From assembly GCF_004661485.1 (NCBI RefSeq), contig NZ_PQVH01000008.1, positions 310,001 through 374,000 on the forward strand: 64,000 bases of DNA. Reading direction: 5' to 3'. The notes beneath the pieces were generated by a model, which did not search any database, had not been told where the DNA came from, and worked only from the letters and a program-made list of their open reading frames with translations. This DNA comes from Methylotenera oryzisoli. Its GTDB lineage: Bacteria; Pseudomonadota; Gammaproteobacteria; Burkholderiales; Methylophilaceae. A program made the translations under genes and the position numbers. This document shows, in pieces, positions 1-60,850 of this stretch. Position 1 is the stretch's first letter. Each line of letters starts with the position of its first letter.

Positions 1-312
1 CGCTTGCGTATGTGTGGTAGCAATCGTTAAAGTGCCAGTTTCCACATCACTAAATTCTTCACCTACACGCTTTATATTTTCAATATCGCGCATCACCTTA
101 TCAGCCAGCATCACAATCTGCTGACCAGGCACTGTCAAACCAGTTAACCGTTTACCATTGCGCTTAAATATCTGCAAACCAAGCTCTTCTTCAATCAACT
201 GAATTTGCTTACTCACGCCGGGCTGTGATGTATACAAAGCATCGGCTGCACTGGTAATATTTAACCCCTGCTTCACCACTTCATGCAAATAACGTAACTG
301 ATGTAATTTCAT
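1..312 (-). CDS. cysB: CysB-like LysR regulator, C-terminus cut by window edge
   Basis: The minus strand reads open from an ATG at 312 to the window edge, giving the first 104 residues of a LysR-type regulator. It begins MKLHQLRYLHEVVKQGLN and carries the N-terminal winged helix-turn-helix (about residues 1-60, with TSAADALYTSQPGVSKQI as helix-turn-helix and recognition helix), followed by the linker helix. That N-terminus is typical of CysB/Cbl, which activate sulfate assimilation genes in response to O- or N-acetylserine. It is divergent from the sulfur assimilation genes starting at 502, which fits CysB. The effector domain lies outside the window, so CysB and Cbl cannot be separated with certainty. 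Confidence 0.88.
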   Translation of the reverse strand, partial: MKLHQLRYLHEVVKQGLNITSAADALYTSQPGVSKQIQLIEEELGLQIFKRNGKRLTGLTVPGQQIVMLADKVMRDIENIKRVGEEFSDVETGTLTIATTHTQA

Positions 313-1327: not shown

Positions 1328-2995
1328 ATGTATAAATATGATGAAATAGATCAACAAATTGTTGATGAACGCGTTGCCCAATATCGCGACCAGACTCGTC
1401 GCTACTTAGCTGGCGAGCTATCAGAAGATGAGTTCCGCCCGCTACGCCTTCAAAATGGCTTATATATCCAACGTCAGGCACCGATGCTCCGCATCGCCGT
1501 GCCTTATGGCATGTTATCTAGCGCACAATTGCGCAAACTTGGCGATATTTCAAAAAAATACGACAAAGGTTATGGTCACTTCAGCACACGTCAGAACTTG
1601 CAATTAAACTGGCCTAAGCTAGAAGATGTGCCTGAAATCCTAGCAGATTTAGCCACAGTGGAAATGCACGCCATTCAAACCTCAGGTAACTGCATCCGCA
1701 ACATCACTACCGACCAGTTCGTAGGCGTTGCACCGGATGAAGTGATTGACCCACGCGCGATTGCTGAAATCATGCGCCAATGGAGCACGTTCCACCCTGA
1801 ATTCGCTTTATTGCCACGTAAATTCAAAATTGCAGTTTCTGGTACTAAAAATGACCGCGCGCTAGTACAAGCCCACGACATTGGCTTAGAGTTTTACCGT
1901 GACAGCAACAACCAAGTAGCAATCAAGGTATGGGTTGGCGGTGGCTTAGGCCGCACACCAATCTTGGGTACAGTAATCCGCGAACATCTGGAATGGCAAC
2001 ATGCCCTTACCTATTGCGAAGCGATTATTCGTGTCTATAACTTACATGGCCGTCGTGACAATATCTACAAAGCACGTATCAAGATTTTAGTGAAGGCTTT
2101 GGGTATTGATGAATTCCGCAAACAAGTAGACGCGGAATGGGCACATATTAAAGATACAGAAAACACCATCAGCGAAGCTGAGTTAGCTCGCGTGGCGCAA
2201 CACTTTGATGTGATGCCTTATGAAAACGTGCCAGCACATGACGCAGGTTTTGATGCGGCAGTTGCTAGCAACCCTGCGTTTGCCGCATGGGTTAAACGTT
2301 GCGTACATCCACACAAACAAACTGGCTATCGCGCAGTGACACTTTCACTCAAACCGCACGGCCAAGCACCTGGCGACATTAGCTCTGAGCAAATGTGGAC
2401 TGTGGCTGACCTTGCTGACCAATACAGCTTTGGTGAGTTACGTTCATCTCATGAGCAAAACCTAATATTGGCTGATGTTAAATTAAGCGATTTATTTGCC
2501 TTGTGGGAAAAAGCACGTGCTAATGGTTTAGCAAGCCCTAACATCGGTTTGCTGACAGATATCATTTGCTGCCCAGGCGGTGACTTCTGCTCACTTGCTA
2601 ACGCAAAGAGTATTCCTATCGCTAAAGCGATTCAAATGCAATTTGACAACCTTGACTACCTGCACGACATTGGTGAGATGGAACTGAATATTTCAGGTTG
2701 TATGAACGCCTGCGGCCACCACCATGTGGGTCACATTGGTATTCTCGGTGTAGATAAAGATGGCTCTGAGTGGTATCAAGTCACAATCGGTGGCAAACAA
2801 GGTAACGATGCCAGCATTGGTACTGTAATTGGGCCTTCATTCTCAGCTGATGAGATGCCTGGCGTCGTGCAAAAGTTAATTGAGGTTTACATTCAAGAAC
2901 GTACACCTGAAGAAAGATTTATTGATACTGTGCGTCGCTTGGGCGTTGCCCCATTCAAAGCACATGTCTATGCAAAAAATGAGGTTGCAGCATGA
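1328..2995 (+). CDS. cysI: Sulfite reductase hemoprotein (CysI type)
   Basis: 555 residues, the normal length for the siroheme/[4Fe-4S] sulfite or nitrite reductase family. Two ferredoxin-like half domains and two siroheme-binding halves are present. The cluster ligands are visible as CPGGDFC (Cys415 and Cys421) and CMNAC (Cys458 and Cys462), that is C-x5-C-x36-C-x3-C, where Cys462 also bridges to siroheme. It reduces sulfite to sulfide with six electrons in the cytoplasm. Nitrite reductase is the alternative, but placement among cysH, cysD and cysN makes sulfite the substrate. No flavoprotein partner (cysJ) lies nearby. The stop overlaps the next start by 4 bp (ATGA), so the two are translationally coupled. 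Confidence 0.95.
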   Translation: MYKYDEIDQQIVDERVAQYRDQTRRYLAGELSEDEFRPLRLQNGLYIQRQAPMLRIAVPYGMLSSAQLRKLGDISKKYDKGYGHFSTRQNLQLNWPKLEDVPEILADLATVEMHAIQTSGNCIRNITTDQFVGVAPDEVIDPRAIAEIMRQWSTFHPEFALLPRKFKIAVSGTKNDRALVQAHDIGLEFYRDSNNQVAIKVWVGGGLGRTPILGTVIREHLEWQHALTYCEAIIRVYNLHGRRDNIYKARIKILVKALGIDEFRKQVDAEWAHIKDTENTISEAELARVAQHFDVMPYENVPAHDAGFDAAVASNPAFAAWVKRCVHPHKQTGYRAVTLSLKPHGQAPGDISSEQMWTVADLADQYSFGELRSSHEQNLILADVKLSDLFALWEKARANGLASPNIGLLTDIICCPGGDFCSLANAKSIPIAKAIQMQFDNLDYLHDIGEMELNISGCMNACGHHHVGHIGILGVDKDGSEWYQVTIGGKQGNDASIGTVIGPSFSADEMPGVVQKLIEVYIQERTPEERFIDTVRRLGVAPFKAHVYAKNEVAA

Positions 2996-7305: not shown

Positions 7306-7806
7306 ATGACTAAACCGTTAAGATTTCTCCAACATTACTCACCTACCCTGCAAGATAAGATCAGACAATTGCAAGCGCAGGGCTTGCTTGGGGACTATAT
7401 TACACAGCGCTATCCGCAACATCACACCATACAAACAGACAAAGCCCTGTATCAGTATAGCAATGAAATTAAGCAAACGTTTTTGCGGAATGCACCCCAG
7501 CTCGATAAAGTACATTACGATAACAAATTAGGCATAGAACACCATGCATTAGGCCTCAATACCGCAATCTCACGCGTACAAGGCGGCAAGCTCAAGGCTA
7601 AAAAAGAAATCCGAATCTCATCATTCTTTAAAGAGTCTCCCACAGAATTCTTACGCATGATTGTGGTTCATGAGTTGGCTCATTTAAAAGAGCGTGATCA
7701 TGACAAGGCTTTTTACCAGCTTTGCCAGCATATGGAGCCTAACTACCACCAGCTAGAGTTCGATTGCCGCGTTTATTTAACGTGGAAAAGTGAAGCTAAG
7801 GCTTAA
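7306..7806 (+). CDS. YgjP-type (WLM/DUF45) zinc metallopeptidase-like protein
   Basis: About 166 residues with the zinc-dependent motif VVHELAHLKERDH (HExxH) near residue 125, followed by a third histidine region in the CQHMEPNYHQLE stretch. This is the YgjP/DUF45 group of predicted metal-dependent hydrolases. The protein is shorter than most members and starts with a conserved FLQHYSPTLQDKIRQL segment. The open frame begins at a GTG (7303), but the ATG at 7306 is the simpler start. Substrate is unknown. It is convergent with the SPFH gene, 40 bp away. Confidence 0.82.
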   Translation: MTKPLRFLQHYSPTLQDKIRQLQAQGLLGDYITQRYPQHHTIQTDKALYQYSNEIKQTFLRNAPQLDKVHYDNKLGIEHHALGLNTAISRVQGGKLKAKKEIRISSFFKESPTEFLRMIVVHELAHLKERDHDKAFYQLCQHMEPNYHQLEFDCRVYLTWKSEAKA

Positions 7807-21885: not shown

Positions 21886-23076
21886 TTAGCTTGTTAACAG
21901 CGCTAAATCCGCTTTTAAATCCTCTATGTGCTCCAACCCCACTGCGATACGCACCAAACCATCACTAATCCCTGCAGCCGCACGAGCCTCAGGCGTTACG
22001 CGGCTATGCGTGGTAGTTGCTGGATGCGTAATCGTACTTTTTGCATCTCCTAAGTTCGCGGTAATTGATATCAATTGTGTAGAGTCAATTAACGCCCATG
22101 CCGACTCTTGAGCAGTTTTACCTGCACGTGGCTTAACCTCAAAGGTCACAATACCAGCACCGCTCAACTGCTGGCTCATGGCTAGCGCATGCTGTGGATG
22201 AGACTTCAGTCCAGGATAATGGACACGACTCACTTGCGGCTGCGCTTCCAGCCATGTGGCTAACGCTAAGGCATTTTTGGCATGCGCTTCCATACGCACA
22301 TGCAACGTTTCCAAACCTTTTAAAAACACCCAGGCATTAAAAGCACTCATGGTCACGCCAGCCGTGCGCAAGAAAGCATAGACTGGTTCCATCAAGGTCT
22401 TAGGACCCAATACAGCGCCACCTAAGCACCTACCCTGCCCATCTATGTATTTTGTGGCGGAGTGAATCACGATATCGGCTCCTAATGCTAATGGGCGCTG
22501 AATTGCCGGGGTGCAAAAACAATTATCCACCACTAAGTGCGCGCCCGCCTGATGTGCAATGTCAGCCAACAGGCGAATATCGCATACCTCAGTTAATGGA
22601 TTAGAGGGCGTTTCCACGAAGAACAATTTAGTTTTTGCCGTTGCTGCAGCCTGCCACTCACTCGCGTCAGTCAGCGAAACAAATGTCACATCCAGCCCCC
22701 AGCGCTTTAGAATATTGCCAAACAACTGTACGCTGGTGCCAAAGATACTGCGCGAAGCCACAACATGATCACCGGCAGAACACAAACCCATGACGCATGC
22801 CAAGATTGCAGACATACCACTAGAAGTTGCCACACACTGTTCAGCACCTTCTAAGGCTGCCAGTTTATTTTGGAACATGGTGACAGTAGGATTAGTGAAG
22901 CGCGAATAAATGTTACCGGGCTCCGTGCCACCAAATCGAGCTGCAGCTTGTGCTGCGCTTTCAAACCTAAAGCTAGAATTCAGGAACAAAGCCTCGGAGT
23001 TCTCTCCATAAGGCGTTGACTCGCTACCGGCACGCACACTAAGTGTTTCTGGGTGAAATTGTAAATTATTATTCAT
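21886..23076 (-). CDS. metZ: O-succinylhomoserine sulfhydrylase
   Basis: About 396 residues of the Cys/Met-metabolism PLP enzymes. The PLP lysine lies in VIHSATKYIDGQGRCLGG, and the N-terminal FRFESAAQAAARFGG and YSRFTNPTV segments are typical of MetZ. It makes homocysteine directly from O-succinylhomoserine and sulfide, so it consumes the sulfide produced by CysI. Cystathionine gamma-synthase is the alternative, but this gene order after purF is usual for metZ. AGAGG spaces better to the ATG at 23076 than to the one at 23079. Its leader carries a SAM-II riboswitch and a terminator. Confidence 0.92.
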   Translation of the reverse strand: MNNNLQFHPETLSVRAGSESTPYGENSEALFLNSSFRFESAAQAAARFGGTEPGNIYSRFTNPTVTMFQNKLAALEGAEQCVATSSGMSAILACVMGLCSAGDHVVASRSIFGTSVQLFGNILKRWGLDVTFVSLTDASEWQAAATAKTKLFFVETPSNPLTEVCDIRLLADIAHQAGAHLVVDNCFCTPAIQRPLALGADIVIHSATKYIDGQGRCLGGAVLGPKTLMEPVYAFLRTAGVTMSAFNAWVFLKGLETLHVRMEAHAKNALALATWLEAQPQVSRVHYPGLKSHPQHALAMSQQLSGAGIVTFEVKPRAGKTAQESAWALIDSTQLISITANLGDAKSTITHPATTTHSRVTPEARAAAGISDGLVRIAVGLEHIEDLKADLALLTS

Positions 23077-23101
23077 CATTACCTCTAAATTCTAAGGACA
23101 T

Positions 23102-23137
23102 AAAAAAACCCGCTCAAGCATTGCGCTAAAACGGGTT
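23102..23137 (-). terminator. Terminator in the metZ leader (riboswitch expression platform)
   Basis: On the minus strand AACCCGTTTTAGC pairs with GCTTGAGCGGGTT around the 5-nt loop GCAAT (one mismatch, two G-U pairs), followed by seven T (23108-23102). It ends about 25 bp before the metZ start. The 5' arm contains TTTAGC, which is complementary to the GCTAAA of the upstream aptamer, so aptamer and terminator can be linked by an antiterminator. It may also end purF transcripts. Confidence 0.85.
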
Positions 23138-23145
23138 CTTTTTTA

Positions 23146-23225
23146 CTCGCTTTAGCTGTGTTTATAATGCGCCCGCAAGCTGAGTGTGGCCTTGATTAAT
23201 GTTGGCAAACTCAAATCAGCGCAAT
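23146..23225 (-). ncRNA. SAM-II (metA-motif, SAM-alpha) riboswitch upstream of metZ
   Basis: Reading on the minus strand, the family's conserved blocks appear in order: TGCGC, TGATTTG, a loop, GCTTGC, GCGCA, then TTATAAA and GCTAAAG. TGCGC (23223-23219) pairs with GCGCA to form P1, and GCTAAAGCGAG is the 3' pseudoknot strand. The first loop is longer than in the minimal SAM-II aptamer and can hold an extra stem (TGAGT/ACTCA with inner GCC/GGC). The location before metZ is the classic target. SAM binding is expected to switch metZ off. Recognition is by eye from remembered consensus, not a covariance search. Confidence 0.85.
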
Positions 23226-23228
23226 TTC

Positions 23229-23257
23229 ATGTTAGCCCTAAGTTTAAGCTCAGTCAA
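23229..23257 (-). promoter_or_regulatory. Sigma-70 promoter of metZ
   Basis: On the minus strand TTGACT (23257-23252) and TAACAT (23234-23229) are separated by exactly 17 bp. Transcription would begin near 23222, right at the first helix of the SAM-II aptamer, so metZ has its own promoter behind purF. Confidence 0.75.
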
Positions 23258-23297: not shown

Positions 23298-24842
23298 TTA
23301 AACGCCTTCCTCTACTTCAATGCCATTAGCGTTGATTAAATTCAAATCTAATTGCGTGCTTGAATTTGCCGGTTTAGCGTTTTTCTGGCCATCACCGCGC
23401 GCAGATTCGATTCTTGATAAATACGCCTCACTAATATCACCAGTGACATATTTACCATCGAAACATGAGCAATCAAACGCTTTGATATTTGGGTTGCTTA
23501 ACTTGATACCATCCACTAGCGCATCAAGATCTTGGTAGATAAGCGCATCTGCACCGATTTCTTTACAGATTTCCTCATCACTACGGCCTGTGGCCAGCAA
23601 CTCATCACGGCTAGGCATATCAATACCGTACACGTTAGGGAAACGTACTGGAGGTGCGGCTGAAGCAAAGTACACTTTAGTTGCGCCTGCATCGCGTGCC
23701 ATCTGCACAATTTGCTGTGAAGTAGTACCACGGACGATAGAGTCATCTACCAGCAATACATTCTTGCCTTTAAACTCAATACCAATCGGATTGAGTTTTT
23801 GGCGTACTGATTTTTTACGCAAGGCTTGGCCAGGCATAATAAAAGTACGGCCAATGTAACGGTTTTTAATAAAGCCTTCGCGGTAATCCAAACCTAATGC
23901 CAAACCAACTTGCAGCGCACTAGGACGGCTAGTATCCGGAATTGGGATAACAACATCAATCTTTTTATCGGCCCATTCACGCTTGATTTTTTCAGCTAGG
24001 CTTTTACCCATATCCAAACGCGTTTGATACACTGACACGCCATCAATCACTGAGTCTGGACGTGCTAAGTACACGTACTCAAAAATACATGGGTTCAGTT
24101 TTGCTTCATCTGAACATTGACGTGAATAGAAGTTACCTTCCATATCGATAAATACTGCTTCACCAGGCTCTACATCACGCACAACCTCAAAGCCCAACAC
24201 ATCTAACGCCACGCTTTCTGAGGCTACGATGTATTCGGTACCTTTATCTGTTTCACTTTTGCCAATCACCAGCGGGCGAATACCGTTAGGATCACGGAAT
24301 GCAAGTAAACCAAAGTTCGCAATCATCGCTACCACTGCATACGCACCCTTACAGCGCTTGTGAACACCAGCAACCGCATCAAATGCCATGTCAGTATTCA
24401 ACACTGCGTTACGTGATGTTTTTTCAATTTCATGCGCAAGCACGTTCAGTAACACTTCTGAGTCTGAACTAGTATTGATATGACGTAAATCCTGACGGAA
24501 CATCTCAGATTTTAATTGCTCGGAATTGGTAAGATTACCGTTATGACCCAGCACAATACCAAATGGAGAATTCACATAAAACGGCTGTGCTTCAGCAGCA
24601 TTAGATGAGCCTGCTGTTGGATAACGTACATGGGCAATACCAGCATTGCCAACTAGGCTACGCATATGACGAGTTTGAAATACGTCTTTCACTAGCCCGT
24701 TATTTTTATGCATAAAGAAAGTATTACCGTCACAGGTCACAATGCCTGCGGCATCTTGTCCTCTATGCTGAAGCACCAGTAACCCATCATATAACAACTG
24801 GTTAACCGGGTTCTTACCAACAATCCCTATAATTCCACACAT
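23298..24842 (-). CDS. purF: Amidophosphoribosyltransferase
   Basis: 514 residues. Cys2 of MCGIIGIVG is the N-terminal nucleophile of the class II glutamine amidotransferase domain, and no propeptide is needed after Met removal. The phosphoribosyltransferase domain has the PRPP loop [14 protein letters not shown]. The enzyme makes 5-phosphoribosylamine, the first committed step of purine synthesis. It lies 29 bp after cvpA, the standard cvpA-purF pair. The C-terminal tail after about residue 480 is low in conservation. Confidence 0.97.
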
Positions 24843-60484: not shown

Positions 60485-60850
60485 TGGTGGAGCAGGCGGG
60501 AATCGAACCCGCGTCCGCAAGCCCTCCACAGACAGTTCTACATACTTAGCCTTGTTGTTTAATTTAACGTGCAACACACCAACAGACAAGCAGTTTGCAC
60601 GCGAGCTACCTAAAGGTTAATGAAGTGCTAAGTAACCCAACACAACACGTATCCCGTGTATATGACACTACGTATGGGTTACCCCAATCCACCCCACGGG
60701 AGAGATGGTGCAGCGTCCAGCCGGGATTAAGCGGCTAGAGAGTAAGTTTCGTCGTTTGCGACTATACTTTTTCTAGTGTATTTACGAGGGTACTAGTCCT
60801 CGGTATGCCCTGCACTGCTTTGCAACCCACGTCGAAACCTGGTCAGCCCC
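60485..60850 (-). ncRNA. ssrA: tmRNA
   Basis: 366 nt on the minus strand, starting GGGGCTGACC and ending with the tRNA-like 3' part that closes in CTCCACCA (CCA at 60487-60485), including the T-arm GGTTCGATTCCC. The tag frame (60759-60727) begins at the resume codon GCA and encodes ANDETYSLAA followed by TAA. tmRNA with SmpB rescues stalled ribosomes and tags the unfinished protein for proteolysis. smpB lies about 115 bp upstream. Confidence 0.97.

Follow-up and report, generated by a model that had tools for sequence, protein, structure and literature searches.

What kind of RNA precedes metZ in Methylotenera oryzisoli, and would it control the gene? The window, that is, the whole stretch of 64,000 nucleotides analysed here, comes from the 2.66 Mb genome of a freshwater methylotroph of the family Methylophilaceae, and its minus strand carries purF (23298-24842), a gap of 218 nt and metZ (21886-23079), with a leader element occupying most of the gap. 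Both gene names come from NCBIfam equivalogs over their cut-offs; for metZ, the putatively regulated gene, which encodes an O-succinylhomoserine sulfhydrylase of 397 aa, these are NF006003 (684 bits) and TIGR01325 (565 bits). An initial annotation had described a promoter, aptamer blocks, a P1 stem and a terminator on the minus strand at 23102-23257, and all of them lie there as described: the interval, which contains the promoter, the whole of a SAM-II aptamer and an intrinsic terminator, ends 22 nt before metZ. From the comparison of related sequences, we consider it very likely that the metZ leader is a SAM-II riboswitch of a subtype with an insert in loop L1, and that it works as an OFF switch by transcription attenuation.

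Organization of the metZ leader

The promoter, P1, the pocket nucleotides, the terminator and the alternative pairing are all recognised by sequence comparison. The promoter consists of a -35 box, TTGACT (23252-23257), and a -10 box, TAACAT (23229-23234), with a 17-nt spacer, and the RNA start would fall at about 23222. A promoter consensus scan gave two sites against 1.0 expected in shuffles, which is near chance. In the relatives, 82 of 87 distinct sequences have TTGAC no more than 50 nt upstream, against 4.1 expected from mononucleotide shuffling, and 80 of the 87 have a -10-like box at 16-18 nt as well.

The aptamer begins with the 5′ strand of P1, TGCGC (23219-23223), which forms 5 bp with GCGCA (23168-23172). 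The L1 block TGATTTGA (23211-23218) contains TGATTTG (23218-23212), with pocket nucleotides U10-U12 at 23215-23213, and runs into the L1 insert hairpin P3 (23182-23212), in which GAGT (23212-23209) pairs with ACTC (23185-23182) and, further in, GCC (23206-23204) pairs with GGC (23191-23189). The 5′ strand of P2, GCTTGC (23175-23180), provides U20, U21, G22 and C23 as TTGC at 23178-23175. L3, delimited from the sequence and the family alignment, is TTATAAACACA (23157-23167), with TTATAAA at 23167-23161, and the 3′ strand of P2, GCTAAAGC (23149-23156), provides G42, C43, U44, A45, A46 and A47 as GCTAAA at 23156-23151.

In the mechanism that we infer, this RNA would bind SAM, which would promote termination and switch metZ off. 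Transcription would start near 23222, and plentiful SAM would fix the pseudoknot stem P2 (GCUUGC with GCUAAAGC); with the GCUAAAGCG strand held in P2, the terminator at 23137-23107 would form before metZ. When SAM is scarce, GCUAAAGCG would be free to pair with CGUUUUAGC once the latter had been transcribed, and this pairing would use up the 5′ arm of the terminator and let the polymerase continue into metZ.

Terminator and alternative pairing

The terminator hairpin, AACCCGTTTTAGC-GCAAT-GCTTGAGCGGGTT (23107-23137), is accompanied by a T tract at 23102-23108, the tract ending at 23102. An automated terminator scan of the locus did not report this terminator (23137-23107). It folds with -15.5 kcal/mol, and of 81 distinct stretches downstream in relatives, 80 fit a terminator pattern, the sole miss (L024) having a visible hairpin and a broken T run. 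The complementarity of GCTAAA in the aptamer to TTTAGC in the terminator, already pointed out in the initial annotation, is present, and it extends over 9 bp, not 6: GCTAAAGCG (23156-23148), the 5′ half of the putative antiterminator, pairs with CGTTTTAGC (23133-23125), the 3′ half, which lies within the terminator 5′ arm, and the resulting hairpin has a calculated energy of -11.0 kcal/mol. Of 80 relatives, 63 have a terminator 5′ arm that pairs 9/9 with the aptamer's GCUAAAGCG at one fixed offset (G-U allowed). Comparison among relatives thus gives good support to the proposed attenuation of metZ by a terminator and an antiterminator. Furthermore, the entropy summed over positions 5-11 of the 5′ arm is 5.25 bits, against 9.16 bits for the opposite positions of the 3′ arm, figures that were counted without gaps and that bulges can blur. 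A 5′ arm more conserved than the 3′ arm is what one would expect if the 5′ arm also pairs elsewhere, while a terminator alone needs no such bias.

Folding of the nascent RNA, calculated as lowest-energy folds in 4-nt steps and free of pseudoknots, gave P1 and P3 up to 76 nt, then a nested P2-like pairing with P1 open at 80-88 nt (0.4 kcal/mol below the 76-nt fold). At about 96-112 nt P1 is closed again and accompanied by the antiterminator; from about 116 nt onwards the RNA has the terminator and an open P1. For the full-length leader without SAM, the lowest-energy fold, in a calculation that leaves pseudoknots outside, already holds the terminator, again with P1 open; the ON state would therefore have to be kinetic and won by timing.

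That ligand-free fold would also suit a SAM-II aptamer that acts mainly on translation or on the stability of the leader RNA, with a constitutive terminator that yields a short leader sRNA, and a parallel exists in S. meliloti, where the terminator after the metA SAM-II is, in the relevant passages of PMC9373788, not predicted to be controlled by SAM; nevertheless, the metZ start lies beyond the terminator, and a constitutive terminator would predict neither the antiterminator pairing nor the conservation bias of the 5′ arm, which makes this account improbable. We therefore retain attenuation by SAM as the preferred reading for the metZ leader.

The alternative pairing is not spread evenly among more distant elements. 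Among the elements listed in a wider sample, a simple detector found terminators no more than 95 nt downstream in 43 of 57 beta-, 9 of 16 gamma- and 2 of 30 alphaproteobacterial elements and in 4 of 18 others, and pairing of at least 8/9 with GCTAAAGCG within 75 nt downstream was found in 28/57, 8/16, 1/30 and 6/18, respectively, where shuffles lead one to expect about 20, 23, 8 and 14%; the beta rows include five long-loop Methylophilaceae, and the alpha rows are strict-pattern elements only. Of 48 short-loop beta- and gammaproteobacterial terminators among the matches listed, 14 have pairing of at least 8/9 in their 5′ half and 6 have it in the 3′ half, which served as a control, with one short-loop element from Methylophilaceae (L101) counted among both the 48 and the 14. 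Because only 14 of these 48 terminators show the 5′-half pairing, we rejected the idea of one antiterminator for all betaproteobacteria; the other relatives probably use another alternative pairing.

Identity of the aptamer

According to PMC3764141, 13 nucleotides of SAM-II (U10-12, U20, U21, G22, C23, G42, C43, U44, A45, A46 and A47) are completely conserved because they form the SAM pocket; we follow the numbering of that paper, PMC11508383 numbering another SAM-II. All 13 are present in the window, and among 76 distinct family sequences, chosen by a pattern that allowed two mismatches and with duplicates dropped, 12 of the 13 never vary and U44 is found in 75. Three of the 90 fetched loci (L009-L098) gave no pattern match, namely L092, L093 and L096. 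In L093, which belongs to the same genus (G157), the terminator is kept, the aptamer has apparently decayed (ACTTGC...GCTTAAGCG) and the TGATTTG block was not found, so that this locus looks like a riboswitch being lost.

In the 76 family sequences, 97.4% of the P1 cells are paired, with a change from CG to UA in two. We also searched for the core with a three-block pattern that leaves P1 free, in one genome per species, which gave at least 119 stretches and, taken from them, 122 elements. Among these listed matches, P1 is paired 4/4 in 120 of the 122, whereas 500 shuffles gave 64 on average and at most 81, a comparison that keeps relatedness among the elements in; 11 different tetramers occur, and the two failures (L115 and L206) pair 3/4 each. 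When the commonest tetramer is removed, 36 of the 38 remaining listed elements pair, against 13.7 expected. For P2, all 9 counted pairs can form in the window and 98.7% of the cells are paired in the 76 family sequences, and a search for covariation in these sequences found that 7 of the 9 pairs never vary, which amounts to conservation. On this analysis, the support for P2 is conservation, together with published mutants of another SAM-II, and not covariation.

A covariance search with the Rfam model SAM_alpha (RF00521), which the initial annotation had put forward as a check, with the lack of a significant match as a refutation, gave no match over the cut-off. The model is covered end to end in the window with 20.1 bits, against a gathering score, a threshold rather than a structural feature, of 36 bits; the E value is 0.031 when 501 bases are searched and 0.039 for the whole genome, in which the metZ leader is the best of 15 weak matches. 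By itself, this match is not significant. Weak matches to RF00521 are cheap: at E up to 10, they occur in 14 of 14 control genomes, none over the cut-off, and at E 0.1 they still occur in 2 of the 14. The sole Rfam match over its cut-off in the window is a tmRNA at 60485-60850 on the minus strand.

We judged the sub-cut-off score uninformative as a test of identity, because a short-loop metZ leader of the same family passes and because scores fall as the L1 insert grows. For the 20 loci of the family for which the two were compared, the longer the insert, the lower the score. Nine loci with inserts of 6-9 nt score 25.8-37.2 bits, two of them over the cut-off: L083 (Novimethylophilus, before metZ) with 36.9 and L075 (an extra copy in genome G159, not before metZ) with 37.2, the remaining seven reaching 25.8-32.2. 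Inserts of 14-20 nt (L042, L044 and L061) go with 26.1-27.1 bits, and inserts of 28-42 nt (L058, L074, L091 and L095, four of the five loci with at least 28 nt) with 20.3-21.2 bits; among the 20 loci, L055 (17 nt), L048 (19 nt), L069 (22 nt) and L088 (37 nt) gave no match at E 1. The shortfall of the window below the SAM_alpha cut-off thus goes with its L1 insert.

A second covariance model, R1, was built from the family alignment, of which the sequence of the window is one row, and it scores 91.6 bits at the locus, as a sequence inside its own alignment. With R1, matches occur at E 1e-4 in 149 of the 187 genomes of the family, at E 0.01 in 205 of the 300 of the order and at E 1e-3 in 82 of the 185 of the class, while 16 of 119 good-quality family genomes have no match at E 1e-4. 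In the same 300 order genomes, RF00521 finds 167 at E 0.1 and 51 over its cut-off. The two models overlap: counted by eye, 17 of the best 20 RF00521 places in the order genomes are among the R1 matches listed, and the genomes of the other three (G252, G320 and G282) likewise have R1 matches. The SAM-II identity proposed in the initial annotation is therefore well supported by comparative evidence despite the score below the cut-off, given the complete pocket, the P1 pairing among the elements listed, the overlap of R1 with RF00521 and the score gradient.

The insert in loop L1

Counted from G13 up to the C that precedes AGCTTGC, the L1 insert measures 6-9 nt in 12 of 87 family loci and 14-42 nt in 75. 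An extra stem in this loop had been suggested as a possibility, and comparison upholds it: among 54 distinct long inserts of 14-42 nt, 52 have GAG/CTC as their closing stem, and the inner stems differ, varying by genus (GACTT/AAGTC, GGC/GCC, TGCTG/CAGCA and TACCGTG/CACGGTA). Long inserts fold better than their mononucleotide shuffles in 49 of the 54 (mean z -1.6, with 39 below -1), and five do not. Among the 122 elements listed in the wider sample, 117 have 4-8 nt between the blocks; the other five, each from Methylophilaceae, have 29-30 nt.

The CUC at 23184-23182 has alternative partners, namely GAG at 23212-23210, which gives P3, and GAG at 23148-23146 after GCTAAAGC, which gives a longer P2. 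The outermost pair of this P2 extension has both sides changed in 3 of 76 rows (one U-A and two A-U), and most rows are compatible with P3 and with the extended P2. It is conceivable, though we think it rather unlikely, that P3 of the Methylophilaceae acts as a functional third part of the switch, competing with P2 and tuning SAM affinity or timing.

Downstream genes

In the family, the longest downstream ORF is MetZ-like at 79 of 85 loci, a set for which the stricter pattern missed two loci that have the element (L049 and L078). Of the six others, L019, L041, L076 and L079 have no more than 233 nt of sequence, and L053 and L075 have a different ORF. Outside the family, 30 of 113 downstream ORFs match the MetZ of the window at 1e-10, some with only 32-47% identity. 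A further 18 downstream proteins from outside the family, chosen by hand, were scanned for protein families: 16 have a family match, and 14 of these are Met/SAM enzymes (seven MetX, three MetH, two betaine-homocysteine methyltransferases, one MetA, whose MetA models are just below the cut-off, and one MetK), the other two being SsuA; two of the 18 gave no family at 1e-60.

Several of these arrangements can be noted individually. SAM-II-like elements lie upstream of metK in a gammaproteobacterium (L210), upstream of betaine-homocysteine methyltransferase genes in two Acidimicrobiia MAGs (L133 and L216), and upstream of genes for SsuA-type sulfonate-binding proteins in Microvirga and Rhodoplanes (L137 and L143). 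Possible tandem riboswitches, with SAM-II-like pairs about 55-75 nt apart on one strand, are found in L106 (3569-3732), G594:C37:37948-38117 and G561:C2:263697-263865. A MAG of Methylotenera oryzisoli (G159) has two extra SAM-II copies with P1 GTGC/GCAC, in L248 (about 2326-2510, plus strand) and in L249 (about 137-195, minus strand), each followed by a terminator and then by a second SAM-II-like aptamer; the latter scores 21.4 bits in L075, which is the same place as in L248, and the copy in L249 was judged by eye. After the extra copy in L248 comes an ORF of 62 aa, of which 45 residues were searched with no Pfam match, and no methionine gene was recognised there.

The nature of the downstream genes also bears on the ligand. 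A change of ligand in a SAM-II-like pseudoknot, for instance to S-adenosylhomocysteine or methionine, might be imagined, as the L1 insert adjoins the pocket strand and SAM is only the putative ligand here; with all 13 listed pocket positions kept and the identified downstream genes of wider relatives mostly Met/SAM, we regard such a change as highly improbable, and SAM as the ligand to be expected of this SAM-II aptamer.

Relation to previously described elements

The window shares with SAM-II (SAM_alpha, metA; RF00521), as described in PMC1273637, the H-type pseudoknot of P1 and P2, the pocket nucleotides, the promoter a few nucleotides before P1, the downstream terminator and the methionine gene; it differs in the 31-nt L1 insert segment with its own hairpin and in its score below the Rfam cut-off. 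The initial annotation overstated the novelty of a terminator-bearing SAM-II in a betaproteobacterium. Corbino et al. (2005; PMC1273637) included Bordetella bronchiseptica in the founding alignment, reported terminators in "many representatives" and placed the promoter just before P1; a SAM-II in the same position before metZ, also predicted to terminate transcription, is described for S. meliloti (PMC9373788), which differs in being an alphaproteobacterium; and the metXZ element of 2014 (PMC4239095) belongs to the same picture.

Leyn et al. (2014; PMC4239095) described metXZ in 35 betaproteobacterial genomes, upstream of metX or metZ, including metZ in three Methylophilales, as six conserved blocks with a pseudoknot (1-4 and 2-6) and a terminator downstream. 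The window matches this description in the text of the paper, being a betaproteobacterial metZ leader with a pseudoknot and a terminator, and block 3, described as partnerless, would correspond to GCTTGC, which pairs with GCTAAAGC as P2, if the identities of the blocks are as the text suggests. In the passages of the paper that present it, the element is called new and is not tied to SAM-II; we infer that metXZ is SAM-II. That the leader instead represents a new RNA class, like SAM-II by chance or convergence, would agree with the Rfam-profile scan of Proteobacteria by Leyn et al., in which SAM_alpha appeared only in Rhizobiales and Rhodobacterales (PMC4239095), but is hardly credible given that the current Rfam model exceeds its cut-off in order genomes, that its best places there are largely R1 places as well, and that the core motif and P1 are common to relatives of the metZ leader and alphaproteobacteria.

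Another element, Bp2_Cand287 (Bp2_287; RF02424), was reported upstream of methionine genes by Khoo et al. (2012; PMC3521395) from prediction and RT-PCR; a cis element for methionine was suggested, and a figure legend names purF, metZ and metX. The kind of locus, beside methionine genes, is the same as in the window. RF02424 scores 109.7-158.4 bits, over its cut-off, in six Paraburkholderia loci (L153 at 7493-7670, plus strand, L139, L145, L159, L177 and L205), and in all six, as in its weak match in the window, it lies on the strand opposite to the SAM-II aptamer and metZ; in none of these seven places is the aptamer on the strand that the model reads. Read backwards, the RF02424 consensus contains, in our own reading, the aptamer and a terminator-like hairpin, and RF02424 apparently represents the same element, with the wrong strand taken for its model. 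The Paraburkholderia element differs from that of the window in a hairpin-like L3 stretch (GGG-CAA-CCC-like) and a short L1; the aptamer in L153 scores only 12.8 bits with SAM_alpha.

The SAM-II long loops family (RF01726; PMC2864571), which by its name has longer loops and is listed there for Bacteroidetes and marine samples, gave no match to the window at E up to 10. In the open-access literature, we found no paper that equates metXZ or Bp2_287 with SAM-II, and a transcriptome paper (PMC3728764) mentions neither metZ nor a riboswitch. Thus, the SAM-II class is known, and, as far as our searches show, the L1-insert subtype and the unification are new.

Implications

If this reading is true, SAM-II, the metXZ element of 2014 and RF02424 would merge into one riboswitch class. 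The family would also offer a natural series of SAM-II RNAs with and without the L1 hairpin, and with a clean terminator and antiterminator, for studying how a small pseudoknot controls termination; should the doubtful role of P3 as a switch element prove true, the Methylophilaceae would have a SAM-II subtype whose aptamer carries its own regulator. More generally, R1 finds matches in 205 of the 300 order genomes at E 0.01, which suggests that SAM-II may be a common means by which SAM controls the steps from homoserine to homocysteine in betaproteobacteria.
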